Translations under genes and position numbers: made by a program
Source: Candidatus Zixiibacteriota bacterium
Lineage (GTDB): Bacteria; Zixibacteria; MSB-5A5; GN15; FEB-12
NCBI GenBank assembly: GCA_024278935.1
Contig: JAJRSF010000048.1
Location: 124,001 to 188,000 of the forward strand
Direction: 5' to 3'
Length of the DNA: 64,000 nt
Shown here: positions 8,801 through 49,232 of the stretch, in pieces
Position numbering within the stretch: the first letter of the stretch is position 1
How the letters are laid out: the number at the start of each line of letters is the position of its first letter
The notes under the pieces: generated by a model
Database searches by the model: none
Told to the model about the DNA's origin: nothing
What the model saw: only the letters and a program-made list of their open reading frames with translations

Positions 8801-10193
8801 TAAAGGTAACAAATCTTATTATACATTGTTCGGAGTTATCCCTCCAAAAAATTATTGCCTTTTTGAAGATGTACAACTGGAAGAACAAGGATATCTAGAG
8901 CACCTAAAGATTGCCGTCGACCAAAAAAAATCTTTTGAATTTCCCGAAGTTGTTTATAATCCCTCGCTTTACAGTCCTGAATATCCAGATAAAGATTTGT
9001 ATTTAAAAACTAACCTGTTTACAATTTTCACTCCCGATAATGAAATTGAATTTATCGTTCTCATTTATCAAAATGTTACCGAACAACGACAGGCTATCTT
9101 AGCTTTAAAAGAATCTGAAGAAAAATTTAGAACTCTTGCTGAATATATTTCTGTTGGCGTCGTTATCTATCAGGATGAAAAATTAGTATATGTCAATCCT
9201 CAAGCGAAACTACTCACCGGATACACCGAAGAAGAAATGAAGCAGATGGATCCATGGGCTTTGTTTGACCCAAGCGTCAAAGATGAAATGCAGCAGCGTG
9301 GGGCAGATAGGTTTGCCGGGAAAGAAGTACCCAATAACTATGAACTTCCTCTTATAGATAAAAATGGTAAGAAAATTTGGGTATTTTATAGTGCTGCATT
9401 AGTTACGTATGATGGTAAGCCTGCAATTATTTCTACTGTTTTAGATATTACGGAAATGAGAGAAACACAATCTGAAATAAAAAGACTGGAACTAGAAAAA
9501 TATAACCAAGTAAAAGAAATCGCCGGTGGTGTTGCTCACGAAATTTATAATTCTTTGTTCCCGGCAAGCTCTTCAATTGAAGTGTTAAAACAACGCATTC
9601 ACTTACATACAGAAGATGATATTAAACGCAATGAAACTTTGCTGAACCTGACTGAATCATCTATAAGAAGAGCGGTCAATATGACTGAACTGGTTACAGA
9701 GTTCTCTAAACTGGATAATCAAGTGAAACCTGAAGAGTTAAATATCGCAGACTTTCTCAACAGATATCTGGTTGAGAACGAATCTTTACTAAACAATATA
9801 AATGTGAAAACTGACATCCCTGATAACCAGATACTTGCAATGAATACATTACATTTCCATTCACTTATGCACAACCTTATGATAAATGCTGTTGATGCTC
9901 TCAAAGATATCGATGATCCGAAAATTGAAATTAAGTCGACACTTGTTGGTAATATAATTACAATTCATTTTATAGATAATGGTGCAGGAATACCAAAAGA
10001 AATTGCCTTTAAAATTTTCGACTCTTTCTTCTCAACAAAACCATATACAGGCACCGGATTAGGACTCGCCATTTGTAAAAAAATCGTATCGTTGTATAAT
10101 GGGGCTATCAGCTACCAGCCATCATTTGACAATGGTGCACATTTTACTATATTACTAAAGACCTCAAACATTCAAACTGATACGCAGGAATAA
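5851..10193 (+). CDS. Membrane histidine kinase with about nine PAS domains (one-base frameshift near 7107)
   Basis: Two open segments (5851-7167 and one covering 7224-10193) join into one protein of about 1447 residues if one A is restored in GGAAAG at 7105-7110. The correct frame then runs through KVDRVVTLSEDITES. The N-terminus has two hydrophobic segments. About nine PAS domains follow, three of which are close tandem copies (HSPVAITVR, QSPLGMTVR, QSPIGITIR) and two more are a similar pair (NIPVGVFRATLDG, NIPVGIYRSTVDG). The kinase core has the H-box VAHEIYNSLFPA, N-box LMHNLMINAVDAL and G-boxes DNGAGIP and GTGLGLAICKKI. It overlaps the response regulator by one base, so the two are a pair. 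The signal is unknown. Confidence 0.85.
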
Positions 10194-11542
10194 TGCCAAA
10201 ATCCGGTTTACTTCTTTTAGTCGATGACGACCCTCTTGTTTTAGAAGCTCTTTATCAGACATTTATTGATGATTACGAGATTATCTTAGCTAAGTCAGGG
10301 ATTGATGCTATTGAGAAGTTACAAGGAAATGATAAGGTAGACACCATCGTTCTAGATATTCGTATGGCTCAAATGGATGGTCTCCAAACTGCTTCAAGAT
10401 TAAAAGAAATCAATTCCTATGTCCCAATTATCTTTCATACCGGCTATCCCGGCGATTATTCTGAAGAGCTTATCGAAAATAATTACCAGCCATTTGATTA
10501 TATTGGTAAAAATGAAAGACCTGCCAGGCTTATTCGAGCGGTCAAAAATGCCGTTTCATATTATCAATTACAATCATCTGATGTAGAACTGATTAAGCTT
10601 GCCAAAGAAGACTACAAAATTATCGGTAAGTCTTATAAGATGTTGGATGTCTACAAAAAAATTGAAAAAATTTCAGCACTACATAACAAAGTAATGATTC
10701 TTGGCGATACCGGTACCGGTAAAGAACTGGTAGCAAAAGCAATCCATAAAAAAAGTAATAGAGCCGACAAACCGCTCGCATTTTTTAACTGTAATTATAA
10801 ATCTGCTGATATCGTAGAATCCGAACTCTTTGGACATATTAAAGGATCGTTCACCGGTGCTATTTCTGATAGAGTAGGAATCTTTGAATATGCCGATAAA
10901 GGAACTTTGTTCTTAGATGAAATCGGTGACTTGGATATTCGAACTCAGGCAAAAATTTTGCGAGTCTTAGAATGTGGTGAGCTTTCACGCATAGGATCTC
11001 CCGATACTATAAAAGTTGATGTACGGCTGATCTGTGCCACTCATCAAAATCTTGAACAAATGGTTGAGGAAAAAGAATTTAGAAGAGATCTTTTCTATCG
11101 TTTAAAAGGTATTACTATCAATCTGCCTCGTTTAATAGATAGACGAGAAGATATTCCTTTACTGATCGACCATTTTAGCCAGGATTATTGTCAGAAGAAC
11201 AATCTGACCCTCAAACTATTTGAACCTCAAGCAAGAGAATTGCTTCTTGACTACGATTGGCCGGGCAATGTCAGGCCACTCTCTGACTCTGTGACCGCTC
11301 TAATCGATCTTTCGCCATCTTATTTTATTACAAAAAAAGATGTCGAGGATTATTTACAATGTGTCAGCGATGAAAATAAGTCTGACGATACATATTCTGC
11401 ACACATGAAAGCGTACAAACGAAAACTTATCTTGAAATCACTCGATAAACATAATGACAATGTTTCTGCGTCCGCTCGTGAATTGTCACTTGACCCATCA
11501 AATCTTAGAAAGCTTATCAAAGAGCTTGATATAAAGAGGTAG
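10193..11542 (+). CDS. NtrC-family sigma54-activating response regulator
   Basis: A 449-residue protein with three domains. A receiver occupies residues 1-125, with acidic pocket VDDDP, phospho-acceptor in VLDIRM and the conserved Lys in YIGKNERP. The AAA+ sigma54-interaction domain covers about 140-375: Walker [21 protein letters not shown], and Walker [11 protein letters not shown] Fis-type helix-turn-helix lies at the C-terminus ([20 protein letters not shown]). The sigma54-contact loop reads GSFTGA rather than GAFTGA. It is translationally coupled to the kinase gene (ATG shares a base with the TAA) and would be phosphorylated by it. A sigma54-type promoter lies 130 bases after its stop, making that locus an obvious candidate target. 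Confidence 0.92.
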
Positions 11543-11671: not shown

Positions 11672-11687
11672 TGGCATGTATGTTGCT
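11672..11687 (+). promoter_or_regulatory. sigma54 (-24/-12) promoter
   Basis: TGGCATGTATGTTGCT matches the sigma54 consensus TGGCACRNNNNTTGCW at every defined position except C to T, with exactly 10 bases between GG and GC. It lies in the gap after a sigma54 activator gene. The predicted start is about 11699. A nearly identical site occurs at 43298. Confidence 0.7.
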
Positions 11688-11698
11688 TTATTAAATAA

Positions 11699-11870
11699 CT
11701 GTAGAGGGGGTACTAGACAATTATTACTACTGGGTTTGACTTTTGAGGCACGTTTTAGAATGAAAATGTAATAAAAATAAATATTTAAATAAGTAAGGGA
11801 TATTGAGGGTATGGGGATTTCTTATTTAATCTGTCCGATGGAGTGGTGCTCAGTCCATCGGATTTTTTTA
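11699..11870 (+). ncRNA. Candidate sigma54-dependent small RNA, about 170 nt
   Basis: Between the sigma54-type promoter and a strong terminator no credible coding frame exists. The possibilities are ATG-AAA-ATG-stop, an 11-codon TTG frame, and a frame from ATG at 11811 that runs through the terminator hairpin into the antisense of the next gene. The predicted transcript carries G-rich, mostly unpaired tracts (GAGGGGG, TGAGGCACG, AAGGGAT, TGAGGGTATGGGGA) in an AU-rich background and ends in a 9-bp hairpin plus seven T. The context of kinase, sigma54 activator, sigma54 promoter and terminator resembles luxO-qrr1 and cbrB-crcZ. Existence of the RNA is inference, and no homologue is claimed. The rest of the gap (11543-11671) holds only a weak GGTAG/CTACC hairpin. 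Confidence 0.45.
11834..11869 (+). terminator. Rho-independent terminator
   Basis: TCCGATGGA (11834-11842), an 11-base loop and TCCATCGGA (11854-11862) form a perfect 9-bp stem, followed by seven T. The T-run is only on the plus-strand side, so it stops rightward transcription just before the convergent gene ending at 11872. Confidence 0.85.
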
Positions 11871-30134: not shown

Positions 30135-33068
30135 ATGAATCTTTCCTCGCCAAAAATTGTTTTTGATGATAAATTATTAGAAGTCGAAGAACTGTTTCGA
30201 CAACGTAAACATAAATTTGCTGCTGTAGAATTCGCCAAACTGCAAATTGATGATTATAAAGTAAAAGAGTATGAGCTTGGGCTTTACTACTCTCTTGCGG
30301 CAGACAGTGAATACTATAAAAGTAATTATAAAAAAGCTATAGACTTTGGTCTCAAAAGTGTGAAGCTACTTGCCGATTATTCCTTAAATAAACGGTTCGG
30401 CAAAATTCAACTTATCTTATCTAAAACATATTCAGCCCTTGGAGATTTAAAGAATGCTGAAATGAGAGCCAGAGATGGTCTCGCATCGTATCGTAGATGT
30501 GGTGATGATATCGGACAAGCTGATTCTCTAAATACTTTGGCTGGTATCTCTTTTATCCGATGTAACTATAACGATGTTGTCGAAGCTCTCGAAGATGGTC
30601 TCACCCATGTTCGCAATAACCCAAGAAAAGTCGCACAGCTCCGAGGTAACTTGGCTCGTACAAGAGTCTTTACCGGTCAATGGGAAGTTGCTGAAAAAGA
30701 AACTCTCGAAGTTTTAGAATATAATAGAACAAATAACGACGAAACCCCTCTTGCTATCAACACTCTTTCTCTTGCTTATCTGCAAATGCGGTTACGTAAA
30801 TTCCATCTTGCCTCAAAGACTTTAGACACAGCTCTGGAAATCATATACAGGCTTGATCTAAAACGTGAAAAATTTATCTACTTAGAATATGCCGGTGAAC
30901 TTGCTTTTGAAAAAGGTGATAACTTCAAAGCAAAATCGTTCCTGACGAAAGCATACGAACAAGGTCTTCTAATCGCTCCAAATTCTGATATGGTCTCACA
31001 ATCAGTACGTCGTTTAGCTGAAGTCGAACTCACTTTAGATAACATTGACGAAGCAATGAAATACGGACAAAAAGCTTTGGAAACATCGCTTGCCGTTGGT
31101 GAAAAAGTCGAAGTTGGACTCTCAAAAAGAGTCATCGCTCAAATTTTCTCCGTCCAAGGTGAACATTACGATGCTTTAGAATATATTAACCAATCGGTAG
31201 ACCTTATAAGAGAAGTCGGCGACCCGTTTGAGCTTGCTCGTACATTACTGGTCATGATAAATGTAAAACTTGAAGCAAATTCTGAAAATTATGACAAAAT
31301 TAAACTGATTCTCGATGAAGTTGTCAAAATATTTCAAAAACTTAAATTACCATTTTGGATTGCTGAAACAGAATTCAAAGCAGGTGTCTTTTATTGTAAA
31401 CATGGCAACCTTGCCGATGGATTTAAATCACTTTCTAAAGCCGAAAAAATCTATACCGATCTTGATGATAAAGTTAAAATTAGAGCAGTCTCAAAATTCT
31501 TAAAATCTTTATCAGACCAAGCAGTTGCTCTTTCAATCTCCCAAGAAAATGAATTTAAAGTTTTTGGCAACCTTATCACACCTACTGAAATCTCAAATAT
31601 TAAAACAAACCAATTAGAACAAATTTTACAGGTTCTTCTTAATCGTTCAGGTGGCGACAGAGCTTTAGTCTATACACCAGATTTTGTAGAATCTCCAATA
31701 AATACATCGTTCCCAATTTCAAAAAACCAAATGGCAAAATTTGCTATCGGGTTCAATAATTTGCTTGGTGAAGAGATTTCTAAATCAAAACCAACTATTA
31801 TTTTGGATTGCCGACGAGACCCATTTATCAATGGGCTAATCATTGACTCTACCGACATGGTCGCGAGTATGATTGTCATTCCGTTTAAGATGAGTGATGG
31901 CGTCGTAAGCTATCTCTATCTGGACAAAATCAGCCGCAACAATACTTTGAACCCATTCAGTCAGGATGAGCTCAACTTTGCCGTTGGTTTTTCTGACATT
32001 ATAGCTTTCAAGTGGGTTGAAATACAAAAACAAAAATTAATTGAAGATAATTTACGACTCAAAGATCAGCTTCGTCAAAAAGCTGCTTTCCCAAATATCA
32101 TTACCAAGAACTCTGAAATGCTTGAGATGCTTTCTCAGGTCAGACAGGTTCTTAATTCAAACATTTCTCTTTCAATCGAAGGCGAAACCGGTTCAGGCAA
32201 AGATGTCTTAGCTCAGGCTATACATTATAACTCTAATCGGAGAGATAAACGATTTATCTCGGTGAACTGTGCCGCATTACCGGAAACACTTTTAGAGTCT
32301 GAGTTATTTGGACATCGCAAAGGTGCTTTCACCGGTGCTGACAGGGACAAATCGGGACTCTTTGAAGAAGCCGATGGTGGTACTTTTTTCCTCGACGAAA
32401 TTGGTGATATGCCTCTTTCTGTCCAGGCAAAAGTGCTTCGTATTCTGGAAGAAAAAGAAATCATTCGTCTGGGTGAAACTGTTCCTCGCAAAGTTGATGT
32501 ACGTATTATATCGGCAACGAATAGAGACCTCAAAGAACTGATGAGTGAAAAACTTTTCCGTCAGGATTTATACTATCGACTTTCTGCTCTTACTTTTAAT
32601 CTGCCTTCATTAAGAGATCGTAAAGATGACATCCCGTTGTTGATTGAGCATTTCTTAAAAGGTTCATCCAAATCTTTTTCGGCACCAACACTTGCCAAAC
32701 TAGTAATGTATGACTGGCCGGGTAATATTCGTGAGCTTGAAAACGAAGTAAAGAAAATGATTCTTCTCTCAGGTGATGAAAGTGTTATTCAGGTCGAAAT
32801 TCTTTCATCGCAAATAAGTGGCCTCTCGGTTTCAGTTCCGACTAATGTCGCGTGCAATGCAAATGTCTCCGATAAAATTTCTTTTAATGAAGACTTCGGA
32901 TTGTATGACTATCTGGAACAGCATGAAGAAATATTCATCGAAAAAGCACTCAAAGAGAAAAAAGGTGTCAAAAAACATGCTGCCGATCTACTCAATATCC
33001 CGGAATCTACTCTAAGATTGAAAATCAAACAGTATGATATTGATGTCTCAAAAATGAAAAGAAAATAA
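30135..33068 (+). CDS. TPR-GAF sigma54-dependent transcriptional activator
   Basis: A 977-residue one-component activator. Residues about 1-460 are tetratricopeptide-like helical repeats (for example KNAEMRARDGLASYRRCGD, DNIDEAMKYGQKALE). About 490-640 is a GAF-like sensor domain. A short coiled linker leads to the AAA+ sigma54-interaction domain (about 660-890) with Walker A GETGSGKD, the contact loop GAFTGA and Walker B FFLDEIGDM. A Fis-type helix-turn-helix closes the protein (VKKHAADLLNIPESTLRLKI). There is no receiver domain, so control is likely by ligand or protein binding to TPR/GAF. Together with the NtrC-type regulator it makes two sigma54 activators for the two sigma54 sites seen here. 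Confidence 0.9.
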   Translation: MNLSSPKIVFDDKLLEVEELFRQRKHKFAAVEFAKLQIDDYKVKEYELGLYYSLAADSEYYKSNYKKAIDFGLKSVKLLADYSLNKRFGKIQLILSKTYSALGDLKNAEMRARDGLASYRRCGDDIGQADSLNTLAGISFIRCNYNDVVEALEDGLTHVRNNPRKVAQLRGNLARTRVFTGQWEVAEKETLEVLEYNRTNNDETPLAINTLSLAYLQMRLRKFHLASKTLDTALEIIYRLDLKREKFIYLEYAGELAFEKGDNFKAKSFLTKAYEQGLLIAPNSDMVSQSVRRLAEVELTLDNIDEAMKYGQKALETSLAVGEKVEVGLSKRVIAQIFSVQGEHYDALEYINQSVDLIREVGDPFELARTLLVMINVKLEANSENYDKIKLILDEVVKIFQKLKLPFWIAETEFKAGVFYCKHGNLADGFKSLSKAEKIYTDLDDKVKIRAVSKFLKSLSDQAVALSISQENEFKVFGNLITPTEISNIKTNQLEQILQVLLNRSGGDRALVYTPDFVESPINTSFPISKNQMAKFAIGFNNLLGEEISKSKPTIILDCRRDPFINGLIIDSTDMVASMIVIPFKMSDGVVSYLYLDKISRNNTLNPFSQDELNFAVGFSDIIAFKWVEIQKQKLIEDNLRLKDQLRQKAAFPNIITKNSEMLEMLSQVRQVLNSNISLSIEGETGSGKDVLAQAIHYNSNRRDKRFISVNCAALPETLLESELFGHRKGAFTGADRDKSGLFEEADGGTFFLDEIGDMPLSVQAKVLRILEEKEIIRLGETVPRKVDVRIISATNRDLKELMSEKLFRQDLYYRLSALTFNLPSLRDRKDDIPLLIEHFLKGSSKSFSAPTLAKLVMYDWPGNIRELENEVKKMILLSGDESVIQVEILSSQISGLSVSVPTNVACNANVSDKISFNEDFGLYDYLEQHEEIFIEKALKEKKGVKKHAADLLNIPESTLRLKIKQYDIDVSKMKRK

Positions 33069-40910: not shown

Positions 40911-43077
40911 ATTGGAGAAGGTTTTGTATCTTACGAAGATTTTTATGTTGAGGAAACTTTTGTAATGCGATACCTAAAATTCTTTTACCATCGTCTATTT
41001 GATTGAGTGATCAATAACCACTGACAAGATTTACATACGCTTCAACAAATGTTGAATCAAGTTCTAGTGACTTCTTACTGCTTAAAACCGCTTCTTCAAA
41101 CTGACCTGATATACCGTATATATATCCTAAATGATAATAAGATTTTGCCTTTTGTTTGTTCCACTCGCTAATACTATTTGATGACGAATACTCAAACGAA
41201 GCATCGTCGGTCTCAATAGGAGGAGGAGATGTCTCAACCGCATCTTTTAATATAGAAATCGCAAGTCTGTTATTAATCGTCGAATCATTATAAATATGGA
41301 GAGCCATCTCATTTAAAACATAAATATTATCGTCGGTTCGTTCTCTAACCTCACGCAGTTTATCTTGAATGTCAAAAAATGAAAAATGTTGTTTGAAAAT
41401 AATCCGTACATAAAGTAGATTCGATAAAATTTGATATGGCTCTAAGCCAAGAGATCTGTTTATTGCAACTAAGGCAGAATCATGCATCTCTAAACTTTGA
41501 AAAATCGATGCTGCGTTGGTGAACCCTTTTGATTGCAATGGGTGTAACTCTTTTTCTTTATTTATATAATATCGAGCAGAATCAACATTACCCATCTCCA
41601 AAAATATCGCCCCAATATTTAAATTATTCTCAGCATAATCCGGATCCAGTTCATTTGCTTTTTTAAAATATGTTAATGCCGTTCCTAAATCACCATTTGC
41701 CGAGTAATAAAGACCTTTTGATGCATAGACATGCGAGGCAGAACCTGTAGGAAGCGAAACAAACGGATAAAACGAAAACAGACCAACAACTAATGCTATG
41801 CCGACTAATTTAAAAGCATAACGAGGCTTTTTGCGTAACAACATTTGTATCGCCACTAAACTATGACTACCTAAAATTATATAAAACGGAATCAGAGGTA
41901 GACGAAAACGACTACTGAAAAAGAACAACGAGGTCATAAGAATATACAAAACTATCAAGCCTAATAAAAACAAAGCAAATTTGTTCTCACGACCGGTTAT
42001 AAGAAGAGATAGGATTGTTAATGAAAACAGAATTCCAAATGACAACTTATTATACTTAAGCAAGTTTACTTTATTAAAGTAAACCTGTAAATATCTGTTA
42101 TTGGAAATCTCCCGATTGGAAATATTATGATACATCTTCTCAAAATATAATTGTATAAATTGTCCAGGATTTGCAAATATCCAATCAATCGCTTTTGATG
42201 TCCAGTATGATGATATCTCGCTCTGAGAAAGTTTTGTACCTATATCTTTTTCGGCAATATAACTAATCTGTTTTATATGCCAATTAAACCCTAATGGCGC
42301 TGGGAGAACCGCAGAGATTCCATTGGCAGCATCATTGTTCCCAACATACAAATTGATTCCACCTTGCGATGCAATCAAAACAGGGTCATCGGCGACTACG
42401 ATATTTCGAACAAAAACAGGAGCAATACAAATGAACAACCCTATTGAAAAGAGTAACAGAGGTTTCAACTTTAACTTTTGCAAATACATAATTATCAATA
42501 TTATAAATAAAGCAACCACCAGAGCAGTCGGGCGAGTAATCGACGCCAACCCTAAAAAGAGTCCTGCGTAAAAAACTAATTTAGGCGAACCATCTTTCCA
42601 CCACTTTATAAAAAAGTAAATTCCTATTTGCAGAAACAACATAAACAGCGAATCCAAAAGCAATTCCGACTCAAAATAATAGATTATAGGAAATAGGGCA
42701 TGGAGCAGACCTGCCACCAACCCGGTTCGTTTATTATAAATCTCTTTACCGGTCAGGTAGGTAATTGCTATAGCAAGCAGCCCCGGGATTACAGAAAATA
42801 ACCGAACAGCCCACAAAGAGACCCCAAACAGTTTGTAAATACCAGCAAGGTAGAAAATATAAAATGGCGCTCGAAAGTATGTCGTATCACCAAAGATATT
42901 CCCATCTAAAATAGAAATCGCCCAATTATGGTGAAAGTTATTATCAACCGTGAGCTGATCCCAATCCGGCAATTGGCTGTATTCCCATAAATAGAGTAAC
43001 CGAAGAACTAATCCAATCAGCAGAATTCCATAAAGAACAATATTGTCAGAAAAATGGGTTGTGAATTTCTTTATCAT
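40909..43077 (-). CDS. Membrane glycosyltransferase (PMT/ArnT-like) with C-terminal TPRs; in-frame TGA before the last 33 codons
   Basis: Codons from ATG 43075-43077 run to a TGA at 41011-41013 (688 residues), and the same frame then continues for 33 codons to TAA at 40909. The N-terminal ~440 residues form about ten membrane helices of the GT-C type, with the DxD-like loop LPDWDQLTVDNNFHHNW near residue 37 and YFRAPFYIFYLAGIYKLFG. The C-terminal part consists of TPRs (GTALTYFKKANELDPDYAEN). The final repeat spans the TGA in perfect register: YVNLVSGY, TGA, SLNQIDDGKRILGIALQKFP, with the TGA at an often aromatic position. It probably transfers sugars from a polyprenyl donor to proteins or lipids. 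A TATATT lies 6 bases before the ATG with a weak -35. Confidence 0.8.
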
Positions 43078-43297
43078 TATTTGAATATATGAAATATGCC
43101 AACACTTTGCTTGTAAAAATATGCACCCTTTTAATGACTTAAAAACAGATGTTATGCGAAATTTTGCATTCCTGTGAAATCAAATTCTTACTCTCTGATT
43201 TTGTATGCAATTTCATTCATCTAGTTAACCTTGTTAACAGTAACATGATACGGCTTGTTTGTTATGCTTTTATCCTCAATCCAAATATCAGAAACTT

Positions 43298-43313
43298 TGG
43301 CATGTCGGTTGCA
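43298..43313 (+). promoter_or_regulatory. sigma54 (-24/-12) promoter of the secreted protease genes
   Basis: TGGCATGTCGGTTGCA matches the sigma54 consensus with only C to T at one position and 10 bases between GG and GC. It shares TTTGGCATGT-NN-GTTGC with the site at 11672. Start would be near 43325, giving a short leader with TTAGGAGATC before ATG 43353. The remainder of the 43078-43297 gap shows nothing definite. Confidence 0.68.
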
Positions 43314-43352
43314 CAAAGGTATAACGGACTTTATATAAATTTAGGAGATCGT

Positions 43353-46252
43353 ATGTATCTTACTTCTGTTAAAACGTACATTGTAATACTGTTTGTTCTG
43401 CTGATAAATGTTTCTATCTCTTTTGGAGCAGTTTTATCTCCAACTCTGTCAAATAAGATTGATGATAGCAACTTTGACTCTGTTGTAACAGTTGTAGTTA
43501 TTCTTGACACAGATGCCCAAGCTACTAATTTACAACTACTCGCTCCATCAAAATCTATATATAATCGCTCTGATAATATTAAAAGAGTACTCAAAAAACT
43601 AACATCTTATGAAGCCCCATATCAAAACTCCATAGAACAATTTTTAAATAAAAATTCCAGCCAACCAATAATTAAACATTGGATTATCCCTGCCTATACT
43701 GCAGAACTCAAAATTTCAGAAATCCAAACACTCTCAAATTTACCGGGTGTTAATATAATAGTAGAAAATGTCCAGCTCAATTTTGAAGACCCTATGAAAA
43801 ACGAACCTGCTCCATTATCTACATCTGTCGCAATTTCAAACGAACTCTACTTAATGAATGTTCCTGCCTTATGGAACAAAGGACTCAAAGGAAAAGGTTC
43901 TCTGGTCTGTTCATTTGATACGGGCGTTGAAGGTACTCATCCTGCACTCGCATCTAAATGGAGAGGCAACCACGCACCTCTTTCTGCCTCTTGGTTTTCA
44001 AAAGTAGCACCTGAATCAACTCCGTTTGATGCCACCGGTCATGGTACCCACACAATGGGCGTCATGGTTGGTTCCTTAGCAGCAGACAGTTTTGGTGTTG
44101 CCCCTGATGCAGAATGGATTTCAGCTGGTGTTGTCGACCAAGGACGTAGTTTGTCTATGACACTTTCTGATATTATCGAAGCGTTCCAGTGGGCGTTAAA
44201 TCCTGATGGCGATGTTGAGACTACCGATGATGTCCCGGATGTTATCTTAAACAGTTGGGGAATCCCAAAAGGACTTTTCCTCCCATGTGATGATACTTTC
44301 TGGGGTGTGATTGACAATGTTGAAGCAGCCGGAATCGTAACAATTTTTGCCGCTGGAAACGAAGGACCTGAACCAATGACTCTTCGCTCACCTGCAGATC
44401 GAGCAACACACCAGCTTAATTCATTTTCAGTTGGAGCAGTAAACTTAAATCGTGAAGTTGCCGATTTCTCAAGTCGCGGGCCTTCATCATGTGACCCTAC
44501 TCAAATCACACCGGAAATCGTTGCTCCGGGTGTTAACATCCGCTCATCAACAAAAGGTGGAGGCTTTGCCTATATGTCGGGTACTTCAATGGCAGCTCCT
44601 TATATCGCCGGTGCCGTAGCACTCATCCGTCAGTACAATAAAACGCAACAGTTGAACAAATTAAAAATGCTTTTATACTTTCCGCAATTGACTTAGGTAA
44701 CAATGGTGAAGATAACGCATATGGAAACGGCTTTGTAGATTTACAATCTATTCTCCAATATATCCCGCTTCCACAAGACCCTGAATACCAAATTGCTTCG
44801 TCAAACTTTGTTGGAACTTCGTTTGTTCTCCCGGGTGAATCATTTGAATTACAACTGACATTACAGAATCCATCAGGCAATGTTGAAACTGCCACAGTAC
44901 AACTTATCACAGCTGATAATAACCTGACTATTCAATCAGGTAGCTCTAACTTTTTCTTTGGCGTTGGTGGTACTATTGCCCAAAATATAATTCCTTTTGA
45001 ACTTACCGTTGATGCCAATGTTGTCCATGGACAGTTGCTGAACTTATCGGCTCTGATAACTTCATCAAATACACTTGCGACTGACACTGTTGATTTTAGA
45101 ATTACTGTTGGTGTACCTGTTGAAGGAAATATCGCAACACATATAAATAACAAACTCAATCTTACTGTGTCAGACTTTGGACCTTTCGGTTTTGCTCCGG
45201 GGTCAGTCTATAACTTGGCGTCCGATGGTTTCCGTTTTAATGGTTCCGAAAATCTCTTATACGAATCAGGACTTATTATCGGAAGATCATCACTCCAAAT
45301 GTCAACTTCTATCAGAGATGAAAACGGTAAATTCAGACCATCCGATTTTGCTCCTACCACTGCCTTGAGTACATCAACTCTCTCAGCTTCCGGTGAGGAA
45401 AGTAGAACAGCAACCTTTGATGACAGCCAGTCACAGATTTCTATCCCAATCGAAGTAAGACAAGAAACTATCCACTCCAACCAAATCGGGGAAGAGGGAC
45501 TGTTGATTGTAAAATATAGTTTACAAAATAATTCTAATGAAATTATCACCGGAATGCATTTTGGAATCCTGCATGACTTTGATCTTTCAGCATCTGATCA
45601 AATAACTTTTGACAACACTCTTTCACTTATCTATCAAAAAAATGATGCCGGTATCTATGTCGGAGTTGTTGACTTAAAAAATATGACATCATTTAAAACG
45701 TATGAAAACGTTTCAGGTAAAATTGGATTCTCAAATACAGAACTGATGACAATCATTTCAGATGTCTCAAACAATATCAACGACACCTTATCTGCCGACA
45801 TGATGTTTATCACATCAACTGACAAATTTAATCTCGCACCACAAACTTCCTATGATATCGCCTTTGCCTATGTCTGTGGTAATTCACTTAACGAACTATA
45901 CGACAATGCTGTCTTGGCAAAACAAAAATTTGATATAGCGACCGACATTGATGACAACTATGCTAACCTTCCAAATCAGTTTGAACTTTCACAAAACTAC
46001 CCCAACCCGTTTAACCCTTCTACAACGATTGCCTTTAACTTACCAACTGCTTCCGATGTGAAACTTGAAATTTACAATGTCTTGGGTCAGTTAGTCAAAA
46101 CTCTCGCAGACACTCACCTTGCCGCCGGAAACCATGCCGTCACATGGGATGCGACCGATAACGGTAATCAAAAGGTAGCAAGCGGAATTTATTTCTACCG
46201 TTTAAGCGATGAAAATCAATTTAAAACGCAGAAGATGACGTTATTAAAATAA
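43353..46252 (+). CDS. Secreted subtilisin-like serine protease with C-terminal sorting domain (one-base frameshift near 44641)
   Basis: Two segments (to 44696, and one covering 45035-46252) join into about 966 residues if one A is restored in the AAAA run at 44640-44643. The joined frame reads NATVEQIKNAFILSAIDLG. I start at ATG 43353 because of AGGAG and a signal peptide (VILFVLLINVSISFGA). The catalytic triad is visible: Asp in CSFDTGVEGTHP, His in GHGTHTMGVMVG, Ser in SGTSMAAPYIAGAVAL. Beta-rich domains follow, and a C-terminal sorting-type domain beginning SQNYPNPFNPSTTI and ending in KMTLLK. Expected to be exported and processed, perhaps by a type IX-like route. Upstream in-frame ATGs from 43149 lie across the sigma54 site and are unlikely starts. 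Confidence 0.85.
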
Positions 46253-46330: not shown

Positions 46331-49092
46331 ATGTTTTCAAAAAAAATAATAACTCACATTCTGTACTTTATAGTAGCACTGAGTTTCACGGCACAATTTG
46401 CGTTTGCTGTAGCACCATCAAAAGATGTTATCACCAAATTGAAACAAGATGGTGTCTATGATGAAAAGATGGCTCTCCTCAAAGATTTCCATAAACGAGG
46501 TGGATGTTCCCCTGTTGAAAATATCTTCAAAAAAGGAAAAAACTCACTCGCAGCAGGTAATGAAGCTGTTGTTGATACAGTCAATGTAGTTGTTCTGTTA
46601 GTCCAATTTTCTGACAATCTCGCAAGTGGAGATGAACAATTTGGTACTATTGCCGATTTTGATTCTATCCTGTTCTCTCAATCATCGGATATCATAAATA
46701 ACCCATCCGGTTCAATGACTGACTTCTATTTAGAAAATTCCTACGGTAACTTTTATATCAAAGGTGATATTACGGTTGGTACATGATGCCGGAATCTTAT
46801 GCATACTATACTAATAATGAGAGTGGACTTGGAGCTTATCCAACTAATTCTCAGAGATTGACTGATGATGCTATTCAAATTGCTGATGCGGATGTTGATT
46901 TTTCATTATATGATTTTAATAATGACGGTGACTGCGATGGTGTGATTCTTATTCACGCTGGTGCCGGCTTTGAAACTTCTGGCTTAACAACTGATATTTG
47001 GTCGCATAAATGGTCAATTCGTTCACCTCGATCTTTAGATGGTGTTTGGGTCGATAATTACAACATGAATCCTGAAGAGTATATTACAGGTGGTGGTACT
47101 ACACTTTCACCAATCGGTGTTTTCTGTCATGAGTATGGACATTTCTTAGGACTCCCTGATTTATATGATACTTCAGATACAACGAATACTTCTTCAGGTC
47201 TTGGAGAATGGTCGCTAATGGCATCCGGTAATTATAATGGCCCTGGTGATAACTCAAGATACCCTGCCCATTTTGATCCGTGGTGCAAATCACAAATCGG
47301 TTTTATAAATCTCATAGATGTCACCGATAATCTATACAACGTAGAAATCCCGCAGATAGAAACAAATCCAACGGCATACAGACTACGCAATGCTATTACC
47401 GGTCCAAGTGAATATTTTATCGTTGAAAACAGACAAAAAGTCGGCTTTGATGCATACTTGCCATCCGAAGGACTTCTGATTTATCACATCGATGAAACCC
47501 GTGCTGATAATACTGACTTTTTTAGATACAAAGTTGCCTTGGAACAAGCTGACAATTTAAACCAGTTAGCATTTCACGGTAGTGGTGGTGACACTGGTGA
47601 TCCATTCCCGGGTTTAACTGACAATAGAGAATTCCAACAATACACTGCTCCAAACTCATACCTCTACAGTGGCACTGCTTCTCAAATTGGTGTATGGAAT
47701 ATCTCAAACTCTGATTCTATTATGACTGCCGATCTTGATGTTGCCTATTCAAGACCTTGGATCGAATCTGTCGGACTATCACCATTTGTTATGGCAGATG
47801 CTGACTCTGATGGTATTTTAGAACCGGGCGAAACAGTACAATTCTTTTTCTCAATAAGTAATCAGATGAGAATAACTGAAAACGTACATGCTACATTATC
47901 AAGCGATAACCCCAGTTTACAATTTACTCAAAATAATATTACAGTTCCCGGTTTGTTTTATTCTGCAACTCTGCAAAACCCTTCCGCACCAATTGAATTC
48001 ATAATACCGGACACAGTTAGTCCACGTATTGATTCATTCTTCTTGACAATCACAACCGACTCTCTTGATGCATTTTCAAATCCAATAACTGGCTCAGTAA
48101 CACATATAAAAACTTTTGGATTCGAATTCACTATCGGTCAACCAAATATCTTAATCGTTGATGCCGATAGGGGAGACACACTCCAAGCAGGAGTCGAAAA
48201 TTCTCTCTATAATAAAAGAGTTCCTACAGACACTTGGGATAGAAACAACGATGGTACTCCAAACATCGGTGACATTGCTCCATATGATATAATTCTTTGG
48301 AATACCGGAACTAATACGGTCTCCGGTGCTATCAATGCTGCCGATATCGCGGTCATGAAACAAATTATGGATGCTGGCAAAAATCTTATGCTATCAACAG
48401 TAGGTGGTGTTGATGACATCATAGGTATAGACTCTACATTGATGACAGACTATTTCCATATTCGGAAAGATGCTACTGTCATGTATCCTGAATACCTCGG
48501 AACTCCGGGGAGTGCCTTGGGAAACAATATGAAATTCCTTCCGGGTTCATCATTCTTTACACCTGTCGTGACCCTCATACCAATAGGAGCAGGAGCTCCC
48601 GAATTTTCATCAGGCGGACAGATTGTCGGCGTATCATATAGTGGTTCATACAAGTCTTTATTCATAACATTTGGGGCCGATTCAGTTGATAATAATATAC
48701 CCGGTTATAATACGCAGTCAGACTATTTTGATAGAGTCGTCGATTTCTTCGGAGGTATCGCAACTGACATTTACGACGGCAACCCATATGCTCGCATTCC
48801 AAATTCATTTGACCTCTCGCAGAACTATCCGAACCCGTTTAACCCGACTACTACTATCAGATATACAATCCGACCTACCGATGAAATCGGTGCTGTGACT
48901 CGTCTTGATGTTTTCAATATGATGGGACAAAAAGTTATCACTCTTGTCGATGAAGCCCAAATCCCGGGTAATTATGAAGTTCAGTGGGATGGGGTCAACT
49001 CAAATCACCAAGAAGTATCCTCGGGGATGTATTTCTACCGTCTAACCCGTGGTTCTGAATATAGCAGTAAAAAAATGACTCTTCTGAAATAA
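46331..49092 (+). CDS. Secreted M6-family metalloprotease with C-terminal sorting domain (one-base frameshift near 46770)
   Basis: Segments 46331-46786 and 46783-49092 join into about 920 residues when one T is restored in ATTA at 46769-46772. The natural frame reads YGWYMMPESYAYYTN. The N-terminus is a signal peptide. The M6 (immune inhibitor A-like) domain has the zinc motif CHEYGHFLGLPDLYD and the downstream LGEWSLMASGNYNG. A beta-rich middle region and an Ig-like domain precede the sorting-type domain (SQNYPNPFNPTTTI to KMTLLK). It lies 78 bases after the subtilisin gene without its own clear promoter, so it probably shares the sigma54 promoter. Confidence 0.85.
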
Positions 49093-49204: not shown

Positions 49205-49232
49205 TTGACAATTTGCTGATATATAGTATAAT
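49205..49232 (+). promoter_or_regulatory. Strong sigma70 promoter of the fur-feo operon
   Basis: Consensus TTGACA (49205-49210) and consensus TATAAT (49227-49232) are separated by 16 bases. The start is about 49239, giving a leader of about 35 bases. This is the best consensus promoter in the window. Confidence 0.75.

Follow-up and report, generated by a model that had tools for sequence, protein, structure and literature searches.

Evidence for a conserved sigma-54 promoter before the secreted S8–M6 protease genes of Zixibacteria and for a regulon of exported proteins

The window analysed here, a 64,000-nucleotide stretch of a Candidatus Zixiibacteriota genome, carries two adjacent genes for secreted proteases on its + strand. 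The first (43353–46252) encodes an S8 (subtilisin-like) protease (PF00082, E = 1e-43) with a clear signal peptide beginning at 43353 and a C-terminal Por_Secre_tail/FlgD-like sorting domain, which together mark it as a T9SS-type exported protease. An upstream extension of its reading frame to 43149 was rejected because the signal peptide starts at 43353. The second (46331–49092) encodes an M6 metalloprotease (PF05547), also with a C-terminal sorting domain. Both genes are interrupted by frameshifts: S8 near 44637–44645, in a short A run, giving the ORFs 43353–44696 and 45035–46252, and M6 near 46770–46785, giving 46331–46786 and 46783–49092. In relatives, S8 is a single intact frame of approximately 970 amino acids and both M6 pieces align in one frame. 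Since both breaks fall at short homopolymers, assembly error is the likely cause; otherwise, the local S8/M6 copy may have decayed and hence be inactive. The two genes are separated by 79 nt, a search of this gap for a + strand terminator found none, and M6 lies directly behind S8 in eight of the 11 relatives' loci long enough to show it (it was not found there in L117, L118 and L120). Co-transcription of M6 with S8 from the promoter described below, as put forward in the initial annotation, is thus probable. Upstream, the regulatory intergenic region extends to the start of a divergent PMT_2/TPR glycosyltransferase-like gene (41011–43077, − strand), a neighbour that 10 of 12 relatives' loci share; a conserved upstream word, CAATATAG, may represent the −10 element of this gene. 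Downstream, a perfect sigma-70 promoter (TTGACA-16-TATAAT, 49205–49232) separates the M6 gene from the feoB region and bounds the protease unit.

The sigma-54 −24/−12 promoter element of the protease genes, TGGCATGTCGGTTGCA (TGGCATG-N4-TTGCA), occupies 43298–43313 on the + strand, and its −24 GG and −12 GC stand at exactly the 10 bp spacing of the YTGGCACG-N4-TTGCW context. It ends 39 nt before the S8 ATG at 43353, in agreement with the earlier placement of the site just before the protease start (counted there as 40), and a ribosome-binding site and the signal peptide follow just downstream. Perfect matches to TGGCAYG-N4-TTGCW occur twice in the window, here and at 11672–11687 (+ strand), where the comparison site TGGCATGTATGTTGCT is identical to it at 13 of 16 positions, as the initial annotation had reported. 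The C-to-T deviation to which that annotation drew attention is present in both sites but is no special signature, T being the commonest base at this position (49 of 76 orthologous promoters). When two mismatches to the motif are allowed, the window holds 16 matches versus 13.6 in shuffled sequences, so that only near-perfect matches are informative and the two-mismatch matches were dropped as evidence. The S8 promoters of relatives also have a conserved GG (58/76 and 47/76) just past the expected transcription start, approximately 14 nt downstream of the −12 GC.

The strongest evidence for the element comes from orthologous loci. An S8 ortholog is found in 96 of 98 relatives, the named ones being mostly Candidatus Zixiibacteriota metagenome-assembled genomes. 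Upstream regions were scored with hand-chosen weights based on the textbook consensus, a C at the first position being admitted after inspection of the data. Counting relatives as the non-independent samples that they are, a score of at least 14 (of 15.1) was reached in 70 of the 78 S8-ortholog upstream regions examined and at least 13 in 76; when T is required at the first position, sites with that C still reach approximately 14.4 of 15.4. By taxonomic rank, at least 14 was reached in 3/3 regions at the level of genus, 43/45 of family, 19/22 of order and 5/8 of class, compared with 0.6% of shuffled sequences and one of 12 S8 paralogs. Between genera the flanking DNA has strongly diverged and the element has been kept, with a lineage consensus of YGGCAYA-N4-TTGCTC-N-AA (AAA after the −12 element), and its intergenic position before the S8 gene is conserved in the related genomes, as befits a sigma-54 promoter. 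At the level of sequence, these comparisons confirm the site at 43298–43313 as a real sigma-54 element.

The host genome (3.4 Mb, 68 contigs, 95% complete) was then considered as a whole, by pattern searches that each had a reversed-pattern control. The strict motif TGGCAYG-N4-TTGCW has four matches in the 3.4 Mb, including a copy at C30:6337 identical to TGGCATGTCGGTTGCA at 16 of 16 positions. The relaxed pattern TGGCNYR-N4-TTGCW gave 17 matches versus five for its control, and GGCAYR-N4-TTGCW gave 15 versus 12, a bare count that is not enriched; 13 of these 15 are intergenic, however, with a binomial P of 1e-11 to 1e-9 when 10–15% of the DNA is taken as intergenic (ORFs of at least 100 amino acids cover approximately 92% of the window). 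In these pattern searches, which took the place of the genome-wide matrix scan suggested earlier, the GGCAYR enrichment lies in intergenic position and not in the count. Three-mismatch genome matches, mostly within genes, were left unused. The host genome contains rpoN and approximately 20 activators with the PF00158 domain (enhancer-binding proteins; EBPs), and its GGCAYR-type targets include the flgB flagellar operon, a textbook sigma-54 target, and a microcompartment (BMC) operon. In a congener, flgB, a lipoprotein, a 230-amino-acid protein and a dockerin-like protein recur as sigma-54 targets. In a separate observation, the −12 element of a sigma-54 site is followed after only approximately 17 nt by the ATG of a conserved, non-exported 126-amino-acid protein (L187, L208), which suggests a very short leader.

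A second layer of conserved sequence lies farther upstream of the S8 promoter. A distal enhancer-like block, TTATGCGAAATTTTGCATT (43147–43170), contains the half-site TTGCA at 43164–43168, and its pattern TTRTGCnnnnnTTTGCAT is retained within the genus; a second half-site, TGCAA at 43206–43210, lies 92 nt before the promoter element and forms part of a match to the combined pattern TGCAA-N70..100-GGCAYR-N4-TTGCW. The region 90–200 nt upstream of the S8 promoter is a conserved block with TTGCAY half-sites, plausibly an enhancer. Across 70 S8 upstream regions, the words TTTGCA/TGCAAA cluster at about −200 to −125, and TATGCAAA/TTTGCATA occurs in 21 of the 70 versus 1.4 expected. S8 orthologs carry on average 2.0 TTGCA/TGCAA half-sites versus 0.38 expected and paralogs 0.5, for a half-site that was chosen after inspection of the alignments. 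The half-sites often face each other (TTGCAY-N3-RTGCAA), and their spacing and orientation vary between lineages. Without mismatch, the palindrome TGTGCAANNNTTGCACA has only two copies in the host genome, 88 and 138 nt before two sister promoters; a one-mismatch copy at C33:170862 was rejected because it lies inside a TetR-type gene. The combined pattern has five matches in the host versus none for its control, and approximately 42 versus eight over 55 genomes. The 30 of its loci that were inspected are mostly intergenic; by a crude test, about half precede proteins with an obvious signal peptide, and PEP-CTERM-type proteins recur among them.

The genes behind promoters of this kind are largely those of exported proteins. 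Host sigma-54 promoters with at least two half-sites precede the S8 protease, a dockerin-like protein, a cohesin/T9SS protein, three PEP-CTERM proteins and one further exported protein, whereas half-sites are absent from the sigma-54 promoters of flgB, the microcompartment operon, the lipoprotein, the 230-amino-acid protein and others, and from the 11672 site. A one-mismatch copy of TGGCATGTCGGTTGCA (L005, C33:197878) precedes an exported cohesin-domain protein with a T9SS sorting tail, and the identical copy at C30:6337 (L001) precedes, at a distance of 500 nt, the dockerin-like protein, a likeness judged by eye, as no Pfam model matched the available part of the protein. This exported protein has its half-site promoter in a congener as well. 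PEP-CTERM genes with both a sigma-54 site and distal half-sites were found at L193 and L192 (C32) and L036 (C33) in the host and at L213 and L255 in relatives, and their tails pass the Pfam and NCBIfam cut-offs. The host also encodes an exosortase (EpsH; L281, C7; PF09721, E = 1e-66; TIGR02602 over cut-off), as do 17 of the 20 other relatives searched. In the vicinity of the C7 exosortase gene are a polysaccharide gene and one for an M4-like metalloprotease. The initial annotation had asked whether other hits precede proteins with YPNPFNP sorting domains; one protein with a YPNPFNP/T9SS tail was found, to which three with PEP-CTERM tails can be added. As such matches precede proteins with T9SS or PEP-CTERM tails, the comparative sequence data give good support to a sigma-54 regulon of exported proteins; the restriction to exported proteolysis that the initial annotation had proposed does not hold, the targets being broader.

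We therefore favour, with a probability of roughly 0.85, the explanation that 43298–43313 is a functional, enhancer-activated sigma-54 (RpoN) promoter belonging to a shared export programme. The element, its conservation, the half-sites shared between loci, rpoN and the approximately 20 activators are directly observed. In the mechanism that we propose, RNA polymerase–sigma-54 would bind the −24/−12 element as a closed complex, and an enhancer-binding protein seated on the TTGCAY half-sites 80–200 bp upstream, presumably responding to an inducing signal, would loop over and open the complex by ATP hydrolysis. Transcription would start near 43324, and read-through would extend the mRNA from the S8 protease gene into that of the M6 protease. 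The other exported proteins (PEP-CTERM, cohesin/T9SS-tail and dockerin-like) would be driven by the same enhancer and promoter module, and because this module recurs at their genes, one activator probably turns on the export programme, extracellular proteolysis included. Export and digestion may in this way be switched on together. The wider proposition, for which we judge the odds somewhat better than even, is that a previously undescribed, Zixibacteria-wide sigma-54 regulon with a TTGCAY enhancer and one activator couples exosortase/PEP-CTERM and T9SS-like sorting with the conserved protease pair. If this is true, the building of the cell surface and the digestion of extracellular protein are under one switch.

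The most serious competitor accepts the sigma-54 promoter but assigns a separate EBP to each target, with TTGCAY either common to long intergenic regions in general or bound by another regulator. The approximately 20 EBPs of the genome, the varying spacing and orientation of the half-sites and the fact that similar-looking palindromes are bound by many activators are all compatible with it. We nevertheless consider it unlikely, although not to be taken lightly, given that the half-sites mark the S8, PEP-CTERM, cohesin and dockerin-like genes, are missing at flgB, the microcompartment operon, the lipoprotein and the 230-amino-acid protein and remain near expectation at S8 paralogs, and that both perfect palindromes in the genome belong to half-site promoters.

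A common activator therefore remains the preferred arrangement, and two candidates are encoded in the window itself: EBP1 (10193–11542, + strand), an NtrC-type response-regulator activator with a GSFTGA motif, and EBP2 (30135–33068, + strand), a TPR-containing sigma-54 activator with a GAFTGA motif and a Fis-type HTH. The earlier suggestion that these two are the regulators has weakened, since they are only two among approximately 20 PF00158 proteins and searches at E < 1e-100 gave no EBP1 ortholog for many of the relatives whose S8 promoters retain the sigma-54 element (G007, G011, G014, G020, G026, G027, G036 and others); EBP1 is not likely to regulate the S8 promoter. The same absence makes it very improbable that EBP1 runs one protease regulon from both window sites, a reading that the agreement of the core elements at 13/16 positions and the closeness of EBP1 to the 11672 site would otherwise invite. 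The 11672 site has no TTGCA half-sites, and behind it stands no + strand gene, hence no protease, but a terminator-ended unit of approximately 170 nt, a putative small RNA (11698–11869, + strand) that ends in an intrinsic terminator (stem 11834–11862, loop with GTGCTC). Folding of the whole unit is no better than that of shuffled sequences, and an Rfam search matched no family. In several relatives a GGCAYG element resembling the 11672 site lies approximately 133–137 nt after EBP1, mostly with GT for GC at −12, and approximately nine have a terminator approximately 290–375 nt after EBP1 with a GTGCTC/GTGCTG loop and compensatory stem changes. The 11672 site thus looks like part of a separate sigma-54 unit for a small RNA, and its initial assignment to the protease regulon was not upheld. 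That the 43298 match arose by chance and an ordinary sigma-70 promoter serves S8 can be practically dismissed, for although a short consensus is readily matched when two mismatches are allowed, this match is kept in the same place in 70 of 78 relatives despite diverged flanks, and no + strand sigma-70-like match between 43070 and 43353 is among those listed.

Zixibacteria are uncultured and are known from sediment and similar metagenomes. A literature search for Zixibacteria together with sigma-54 or PEP-CTERM found no paper, and none was found on the regulation of their exported enzymes. A class-wide promoter before one secreted protease accordingly offers a handle on exported-enzyme regulation in this group, permitting metatranscriptome checks for co-induction of S8/M6 and PEP-CTERM genes and assays of activators against one DNA motif.

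Compared with canonical sigma-54 promoters (TGGCACG-N4-TTGCW with NtrC-type enhancers), the promoters described here share the GG-N10-GC spacing, the consensus and an upstream activator region, but differ in the lineage consensus YGGCAYA-N4-TTGCTC with AAA after the −12 element and in the TTGCAY half-site. Sigma-54 has been proposed to govern the bacterial exterior, including exopolysaccharides, flagella, lipopolysaccharides, lipoproteins and the cell wall (Francke et al., 2011; PMC3162934). The targets found here, largely exported proteins and flagella, agree with that proposal; secreted proteases are not among the themes just listed. The closest known system is the PEP-CTERM/EpsH regulon of PrsK/PrsR. 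In Proteobacteria only, sigma-54 sites with an activator motif 1 ending in TTTACA have been described before PEP-CTERM genes (Haft et al., 2006; PMC1569441), and pepA of Aquincola, a PEP-CTERM gene, is RpoN-dependent (PMC9850573). Both systems combine a −24/−12 element with a distal activator motif in long intergenic regions and involve PEP-CTERM genes and an exosortase. In Zixibacteria, however, the distal motif is TTTGCATA/TATGCAAA, with TTGCAY in place of TTTACA. In an NCBIfam classification, which named no activator for the regulon, no host EBP reached the cut-off for PrsR (TIGR02915), a mark of the proteobacterial type (best score 444 bits versus a cut-off of 502.6), and PrsK/PrsT, searched for around the exosortase only, were not found there. 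The Zixibacteria module also, and most widely, precedes the secreted S8(-M6) protease, as well as T9SS-tailed, cohesin and dockerin proteins. The Zixibacteria regulon works alike, but its motif and host group differ and its targets are extended; it is a variant of the proteobacterial PEP-CTERM/PrsR regulon, related to it but not a member. This points to control of PEP-CTERM export by sigma-54 beyond the Proteobacteria, with different enhancer DNA.
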